Positions 3,310 to 4,481 of a stretch of 39,221 nt of DNA are shown here, piece by piece (the first letter of the stretch is position 1; the number at the start of each line of letters is the position of its first letter). Under the pieces are notes generated by a model. That model had not been told where the DNA came from, searched no databases, and saw only the letters and a program-made list of their open reading frames with translations. Source of the DNA: Acidobacteriota bacterium (GTDB taxonomy: Bacteria; Acidobacteriota; Terriglobia; Terriglobales; Acidobacteriaceae); NCBI GenBank assembly GCA_021826695.1, contig JAKAYS010000011.1, positions 1 to 39,221 on the forward strand, read 5' to 3'. The position numbers and the translations under genes were made by a program.

Positions 3310-3371
3310 CCGGGTGGCCCATTCAAGCCCACCCTGAGCGTAGCCGAACGGGTTGGCTTGAGTGGGGGAGA
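3310..3371. repeat. REP hairpin, left border of the rayT unit
   Basis: It starts with CCGGGTGGCCCATTCAAGCC (3310-3329). With one mismatch this is the reverse complement of the sequence at 3998-4017 beyond the rayT stop, and it also matches 4366-4385. The hairpin arms CCCATTCAAGCC and GGCTTGAGTGGG enclose a spacer containing GAGCGTAGCCGAACGG. Bases 3318-3371 are identical to 3602-3655 inside the rayT gene (54 of 54). Confidence 0.8.
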
Positions 3372-3386
3372 GAGTAATCTGCATCC

Positions 3387-4004
3387 ATGCCATCTAGGCT
3401 GAAACGATTCCACGAATCCGGCCAGAGCCATTTCATCACCTTCTCCTGCTACCACCGCCATCCCCTATTCGCGGAACCGGCAACCAGAGGAGTTTTCGAA
3501 CTCGCGCTGGAACGTGTCCGACTGAGTTTCGGTCTCCGTGTTTACGGCTACGTAGTCATGCCCGAGCACGTTCATTTACTTGTCAGCGAACCCGACGGTG
3601 CCCCATTCAAGCCCACCCTGAGCGTAGCCGAACGGGTTGGCTTGAGTGGGGGAGAAACTCGCCGATCTCTCGCCGATGTCATCAAGTCCCTCAAGCAGGG
3701 AGTGTCGCGGCGCTTGATCGGGAAAGCCAAGCACTTCTGGCAAAAGCGCTATTACGATTTCAACGTTCGGGATAATAGTCAGTTCGTGGAGAAGCTTCGC
3801 TACATTCATCGCAACCCGGTGAAGCGTGGATTGTGCGAACGTCCGGAAGACTGGCAGTGGAGCAGTTTCCTTCACTATGCTACGGGCGTCGAAGGACGCG
3901 TGGAGATTGAATCCGAGTGGACGGCAAGAAAACGTGAACGCACTGCGGGAAGGCTTTGTTCAACCGTGGAACCTCTTCCCCACTCAAGCCAAAAGCAGGC
4001 TTGA
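3387..4004 (+). CDS. rayT: REP-associated tyrosine transposase (RAYT, Y1 HUH family)
   Basis: A 205-residue single-tyrosine HUH endonuclease (IS200-like, PF01797). RAYTs nick at REP hairpins and are thought to spread them. Visible features: the metal-binding HUH motif His61-Val-His63 in MPEHVHLLVSEP, the family block FWQKRYYDFNV with the probable catalytic tyrosine near residues 122-123, and the conserved RYIHRNPVKRGL helix. The C-terminus WQWSSFLHYATG...EIESEW is also typical. Residues 72-90 (APFKPTLSVAERVGLSGGE) have no counterpart in the family; they are encoded by a REP copy inserted in frame right after the HUH strand. The last residues and the stop codon lie in another REP. The start is ATG 3387 (MPSRLKRFHESGQSHFITF), standard for the family. 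It is intact as an ORF; whether the insertion leaves it active is unknown. Confidence 0.88.
   Translation: MPSRLKRFHESGQSHFITFSCYHRHPLFAEPATRGVFELALERVRLSFGLRVYGYVVMPEHVHLLVSEPDGAPFKPTLSVAERVGLSGGETRRSLADVIKSLKQGVSRRLIGKAKHFWQKRYYDFNVRDNSQFVEKLRYIHRNPVKRGLCERPEDWQWSSFLHYATGVEGRVEIESEWTARKRERTAGRLCSTVEPLPHSSQKQA
3602..3655. repeat. REP copy inserted in frame inside rayT
   Basis: This 54-base segment is identical to 3318-3371 upstream of the gene and comprises the full REP hairpin with its spacer. Its length is a multiple of three, and it is read through as 18 codons of the transposase between SEPDG and TRRSLADV. The other frames of the element are not used, so the open frame across it is what preserved the gene. 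Confidence 0.85.
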
Positions 4005-4017
4005 ATGGGGCACCCGG
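3978..4017. repeat. REP hairpin, right border of the rayT unit, overlapping its stop codon
   Basis: CCCCACTCAAGCC and GGCTTGAATGGGG form arms around AAAAGCA, followed by the tail CACCCGG. The rayT stop codon (TGA, 4002-4004) lies inside the right arm. Together with 3310-3329 this gives the rayT unit 20-base inverted ends with one mismatch. Confidence 0.8.
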
Positions 4018-4067
4018 CGAAACAACTGGCAGTAACCTGCATGTTAGATGGTAGGAGGAGTTGGGCA

Positions 4068-4313
4068 ATGACTCAAGACGATGTTGCACTTCTGCGTCGA
4101 AGCATCGATAAGGTAGTTCGACTTCACTGCACGGATGGTGAGGTTATCTCTGCCAAAATCGATCTAGTAGATGAAAACGACGGAGAGATCGTTTACCAAA
4201 TGCTGGCCACAAATCAGGAGACTAAGCCTGCCTACTCAAAAGCTGGAATAGATGCGGCGTACCTGCTTCGCTTCGATGAAGTTGAATGGGTGGAACAGGA
4301 AGTTCAAACCTGA
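4068..4313 (+). CDS. Small protein of unknown function, possibly Sm-like
   Basis: An 81-residue cytosolic protein beginning MTQDDVALLRRSIDKVVRLH. It has no signal peptide, cysteine motif or membrane segment. ATG 4068 is supported by a strong GGAGGAG at 4054-4060, seven bases upstream; the longer frame back to 4005 starts inside the REP and is unlikely. The alternating beta pattern (VRLHCTDGEVISAKIDLV ... GEIVYQML ... AYLLRFDEVEWVE) suggests a small barrel of Sm/LSm or similar type, a weak inference from pattern alone. It sits between REP repeats and converges with the hldD operon. I do not recognise a named family. Confidence 0.7.
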   Translation: MTQDDVALLRRSIDKVVRLHCTDGEVISAKIDLVDENDGEIVYQMLATNQETKPAYSKAGIDAAYLLRFDEVEWVEQEVQT

Positions 4314-4365
4314 TCTGATCTGTCTCTCCTAAATCATTAAGGATTAGGGTAACCTACACATCGAG

Positions 4366-4481
4366 CCGGGTGCCCCATTCAAGCCGTGTTTGGCTTGAGT
4401 GGGGACGTTTCTAATCCCGCTACAGCATACACCTGTTTCCCAGATGAGCCGCAAAGTGCGCGGCGCATCTGGGGCACCCGG
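4366..4481. repeat. Paired REPs (BIME) between two convergent genes
   Basis: The element is bounded by a perfect 12-base inverted repeat, CCGGGTGCCCCA (4366-4377) and TGGGGCACCCGG (4470-4481). The left half is a REP with arms CCCCATTCAAGCC and GGCTTGAGTGGGG. The right half is a different hairpin, CCCAGATG (4439-4446) with CATCTGGG (4466-4473). It lies between the 3' ends of the 81-residue protein gene (plus) and hldD (minus), where it could act as a bidirectional transcript end. Confidence 0.75.

Follow-up and report, generated by a model that had tools for sequence, protein, structure and literature searches.

The rayT gene described here carries, inside its reading frame, a copy of the REP hairpin that flanks it, which raises the question of when and how this repeat entered the gene of its own transposase and whether it serves any purpose there. 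The window, which is the whole stretch of 39,221 nucleotides analysed, comes from a member of the Acidobacteriota (Terriglobia) and contains on the forward strand at 3387–4004 an intact rayT (tnpA-REP) gene of 205 amino acids, identified by profile and fold as encoding a REP-associated tyrosine transposase (RAYT). The product scored 107.7 bits with NF047646 (REP-associated tyrosine transposase), above the NCBI curated cut-off of 80, and also matched Pfam Y1_Tnp. Its nearest structural relative was TnpA-REP of E. coli (4ER8; profile E 6.7e-19, Foldseek E 1.5e-11), and with NF033573, the NCBIfam IS200 equivalog for IS200/IS605 (subclass 1.1), it reached 25.6 bits, below the cut-off of 55. The residues of the Y1 HUH core all aligned with 4ER8. 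These are H61 and H63 of the conserved HUH motif H61-V62-H63 (codons at 3567–3575), Y139 in the YIHRNP motif (3801–3803; Y115 of 4ER8) and N143, the third metal ligand (3813–3815; N119 of 4ER8). From this alignment H61/H63, Y139 and N143 are the probable catalytic residues with none missing; FWQ..YYD is the W motif, and the catalytic tyrosine is most probably Y139. As in other RAYT/TnpA-REP loci, inverted cognate REPs surround the gene and many copies exist in the genome. The rayT stop codon overlaps the ATG (TGAATG) of a small ORF at 4005–4313, for which a Pfam match was absent. A remnant of the 3′ end of a second rayT (YAMALEGSVKIKSEWVSRKSERAEGRFCAAVE), followed by a decayed REP, was seen at 2171–2325, some 1.1 kb ahead of the intact copy.

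The in-gene REP (3597–3655, plus strand) lies 8 codons downstream of the HUH motif and encodes residues 71 to 90 in loop 1, between strand β3 and helix αC, and the reading frame is open throughout the 205-amino acid ORF. The 5′ flanking REP (3313–3371, plus strand) ends 15 nt upstream of the ATG at 3387. The two elements are direct repeats of 59 nt, identical at 58/59 positions with the sole mismatch at 3317/3601. A sequence-only reading of this DNA had reported a 54-base REP identical to the copy 15 bases upstream of rayT, and this was borne out at every position (3602–3655 versus 3318–3371, 54/54). Each of these two copies folds into a hairpin whose outer stem measures 12–13 bp (z −4.5 and −3.9), and the stem arms of the in-gene copy are at 3601–3613 and 3639–3651 (plus strand). 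The REP is compound, as a second palindrome with CCCTGAGCGTAGCCGAACGGG core is nested inside its loop (3613–3638, plus strand, in the in-gene copy) and is repeated elsewhere in the genus. At the position of the putative GT[AG]G foot the 5′ REP reads GGTGGCCC, with GTGG present, and the in-gene copy reads GGTGCCCC. The inverted 3′ REP (3974–4018, minus strand) codes for the C-terminal PHSSQKQA and the stop codon of rayT, a layout which is alike in nearly all orthologues, and a further REP is located downstream at 4365–4405 (plus strand).

The distribution of this REP family was monitored in the host genome (G000) and its genus. G000 contains 47 exact REP arms (about 25 hairpins) versus 0 for a reversed control pattern, and the REP at rayT is therefore not a chance palindrome. 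Compound copies at ≥90% identity were found in five genomes of the genus, the copies of G003 matched the in-gene REP at 55/55 positions, and in G007 the inner palindrome alone occurred in many copies at 90%. On contigs C10, C91, C109 and C176 of G000, REP pairs often stood ~185–200 bp apart in opposite order, resembling REPINs/BIMEs. As a control, stretches of the own genome were checked for REPs in genes other than rayT, on the basis of ORFs in place of curated annotation, and a single additional compound REP was met within the frame of a different protein (L155; G000:C68:2878–2937, minus strand). This REP falls at about residue 34 of a large protein (GAPFKPALSVAERVGLRG), directly behind a signal-like N-terminal segment, and the protein showed a weak match to Glyco_hydro_2_N. 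At G000:C133:28389–28613, a rayT of another subfamily ends behind the helix αC region, with its own REPs (CCCACATCTC...GAGATGTGGG) at the break.

The in-gene REP is an insertion since orthologues with an empty site exist. The loop leading from the HUH strand to helix αC (HLL to LADA) measures a constant 45 nt in nearly all RAYT relatives of the family, and loop 1 of the window gene is 63 nt (21 codons) longer than in empty-site orthologues. Thus, the claim that a REP had inserted in frame into its own transposase gene was confirmed by the intact 205-amino acid ORF and by the empty alleles, which were present in nearly all relatives when looked for as that reading had proposed; its figure of 18 added codons was correct as an in-frame gain and too small in size. 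An ancestral protein loop from which the REPs were derived would agree with the presence of the segment in 3/3 genus orthologues having sequence across loop 1. This origin, the one which the earlier reading had named as speaking against insertion, was rejected because of the empty sites; most RAYTs of the clade do not have the segment, and inserts found in both orientations, two loops and several REP families make it hardly credible. The AlphaFold2 model also agreed with the suggestion of a surface loop, as the core was modelled with confidence (pLDDT above 90) and the insert appeared as a peripheral disordered loop (pLDDT about 55).

The perfect identity of the repeats had been taken as a sign of recent insertion, and this part of the earlier interpretation was overturned. 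The insertion is not recent because a REP at the identical codon and in the identical orientation, with an equal residue count between REP stem and helix, is also carried by two congeneric species, G004 (locus L005) and G005 (locus L007), and the core genes of the three carriers have diverged at dS about 1. The comparison of these orthologues indicates that the event predates the divergence of G000, G004 and G005. The REP stem is identical among the three species (26/26 nt), and the loop is different in each, being short in G004, filled by a nested CCCCGGCGAGC palindrome in G005 and compound in the window. A stem that is identical while the loops differ shows that, once inserted, the in-gene REP DNA was overwritten or kept in line with the mobile REP family. 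What is recent or homogenised is only the sequence that the window's in-gene REP has at present, its stem and its compound loop. If the 5′ REP had transposed into rayT only lately and in this strain alone, the 58/59 identity, compound loop included, would be accounted for, but the REPs of G004 and G005 at identical codon, orientation and distance to helix αC would then require several independent hits at one codon, and we regard such an event as very improbable. The rayT core in the genus of the window showed dN/dS of 0.12–0.14 at dS about 1, and the enzyme is kept under purifying selection while bearing the insert.

The recurrence of such inserts was checked in 105 non-redundant RAYT loci, most of the genomes compared being MAGs, of which 36 had CTCAAGCC-type REPs and 69 had other REP families. 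Internal cognate REPs were detected in 13/36 of the former and 3/69 of the latter. In all 16 genes the frame was kept across the insert and the hairpin shared sequence with the gene's own flanking REPs, and every insert (16/16) was located either in loop 1 (β3-αC) or in loop 2 (αC to the FWQ motif). The inserts span several REP families, both orientations and different frames. Judged by orientation, frame, REP family and position in one tree, together with junction anatomy, at least eight insertion events look independent. In loop 1 these are the event in the genus of the window, at least one in the L034/L035/L037/L174/L225 group and one in L036, and in loop 2 those of L037/L040/L043, L041/L189/L207, L049, L055 and L076. 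The chance of eight events falling within some 20 of about 155 residues was estimated to be near 1e-7 on the assumption of equal in-frame tolerance, and the confinement of all events to two loops is as predicted if inserts survive only in tolerated loops. Because detection requires a near-perfect stem, decayed inserts are undercounted.

These results together make it probable that a flanking REP of the RAYT locus was copied locally into rayT in an ancestor of the genus. The insert would have entered the β3-αC loop, and it would have survived because it was in frame and in a loop where the enzyme tolerates extra disordered residues. Afterwards its DNA would have stayed, or become, identical to the REPs in circulation, with a stem that is constant between species and a loop that was exchanged, or taken up by a nested palindrome, differently in each species. 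Related RAYTs have gone through the same repeatedly, always with a REP of the cognate family and never outside the pair of loops bracketing helix αC. The in-gene REP would be a tolerated by-product of local REP copying, and the extra loop would have no function of its own.

The donors could be traced in several relatives. Plus-oriented inserts are akin to the 5′ REP and minus-oriented inserts mostly to the 3′ REP. The L035 insert matches the 3′ end of its own rayT, with 17 nt of rayT coding sequence ahead of the REP, the donor match of the L036 insert extends into the flanks on both sides (47/49), and the L049 insert matches its own 3′ REP at 44/45 positions. The loop of the in-gene REP of L005 aligns with its own 3′ REP over 43 columns, of which one is a mismatch and one a gap. 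The REP arms are also clustered, as 9/12 of the genome-wide arms of G036 and 7/12 of those of G077 are found within 1.8 kb at rayT. The clustering and the donor matches together indicate that the copying is largely local. For the window itself a local donor is unproven because the loop of its in-gene REP matches the 5′ REP and the G003 copies (55/55) equally well, and the 5′ REP was dropped as sole donor for the same reason.

As to how the copies are made, we lean slightly towards cleavage and joining by RAYT on single-stranded DNA, and TnpA-REP proteins from other sources are established to cleave and join REPs on ssDNA in vitro (PMC8266576). A route that leaves RAYT uninvolved, by template switching during replication or by conversion between hairpins, is plausible though less probable. 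It would agree with the travel of donor flanks along with the REP, with the short CGAAC shared at the L036 junction, and with the duplications seen at two loci. In L034 (1501–2118, minus strand) the in-gene REP stands between perfect 24-nt direct repeats of rayT codons (CCTGCTGAGCGAACCACAACAGGA), and the L037 insert shows a 22/24 version of this arrangement, neither of which fits simple HUH transposition. Template switching is disfavoured by the finding that the REPs are cognate only and clustered at rayT, and by the known in vitro activity of TnpA-REP. Recombination between the 24-nt repeats could restore the empty site and may explain the patchy distribution of the inserts. The residues SEPEGAP in L039 were considered as an excision scar and found to be indistinguishable from chance.

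Apparent deletions at related loci were also noted. In G006 (L006, 631–690) and in L197 (1470–1600) the 5′ part of rayT is gone and the remnant starts at a REP that resembles a 5′ flanking REP on its left and continues into loop 1 on its right. This anatomy suggests the outcome expected if the stretch from the 5′ REP to the in-gene copy had been deleted, and the two loci, which look like REP-REP recombinants, would also agree with template switching. In L007, another REP truncates rayT past the W motif. In L230 (1570–1780) a different palindrome family (CCCCAGCGAGC...GCTTGCTGGGGTGGAAGCC) has inserted in tandem into the NPV motif of a degenerate rayT, a pseudogene, and a relative of this family sits in L007, within the loop of its in-gene REP.

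The possibility that the in-gene REP is functional and selected, either as an mRNA or ssDNA hairpin by which RAYT limits itself or as a loop that alters DNA recognition, was weighed against the by-product interpretation. In its favour, three species separated by dS about 1 share all 26/26 stem bases, the hairpin folds well and internal REPs occur in about a third of the clade. The perfect stem at that divergence could also reflect selection on the hairpin, which tells against tolerated copying; however, homogenisation with genomic REPs explains it just as well because the loops differ and match other REPs. A selected element is also difficult to reconcile with its absence from most RAYTs of the clade, with the disorder of the loop in the AlphaFold model and with encoded peptides that are unrelated (three frames, both strands), the last of which disfavours a role for the insert peptide itself. 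On this evidence a selected function, be it the changed target choice or the autoregulation that the earlier reading had asked about, is unlikely. Slightly less likely still is a specific form of it, a built-in brake in which the coding-region hairpin lets RAYT act on its own message or gene, REP-REP deletion kills the gene and REP-laden RAYTs limit themselves. If it were true, recombination between the 5′ and in-gene REPs would remove the N-terminal half, as the remnants in G006 and L197 suggest.

In-frame REPs inside tnpA-REP genes were reported earlier for subclass 2.4 and described as unique to it (Cyanobacteria, Bacteroidetes and scattered others), with the signature NH[IFV]H, WQ and YIxNNP (Quentin et al, 2018, Table 1; PMC6006769). 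The anatomy found here, with REPs in frame between the HuH and Y motifs in the window and 15 relatives, equals that case, and the phenomenon is therefore not new. In contrast to subclass 2.4, the window and most of 54 relatives have EHVH, WQ and YIHRNP, and this acidobacterial family, judged by the published signatures, apparently lies outside subclass 2.4. With that signature absent, the phenomenon appears wider than stated. The recurrence in two loops, the donors carrying rayT sequence, the persistence at the same site with loop change and the REP-REP deletions are new relative to that report. Intragenic REPs and Rickettsia palindromic elements (RPEs) are likewise small palindromic repeats that lie within coding sequences without breaking the frame, and REP ends give stop codons there too, but the genes that house them mostly have no relation to the mobiliser, whereas here the host is the cognate transposase (PMC3733652). 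In the BIMEs with a rayT 3′ end, inverted cognate REPs also flank rayT and rayT 3′-end sequence travels with the REP; the rayT end is there a BIME spacer, whereas in L035 and L036 it has entered the coding part of rayT (Nunvar et al, 2010; PMC2817692). A literature search for REPs in RAYT genes of Acidobacteriota returned general reports only. REPs enter their own transposase gene repeatedly, apparently beyond the subclass in which this was first known; a REP flanking the gene itself can serve as source, and entry is tolerated at two loops. These loci offer natural, dated cases of local REP movement, and their natural alleles (empty, plus insert and minus insert) are usable to test the mobilisation of REPs by RAYT.
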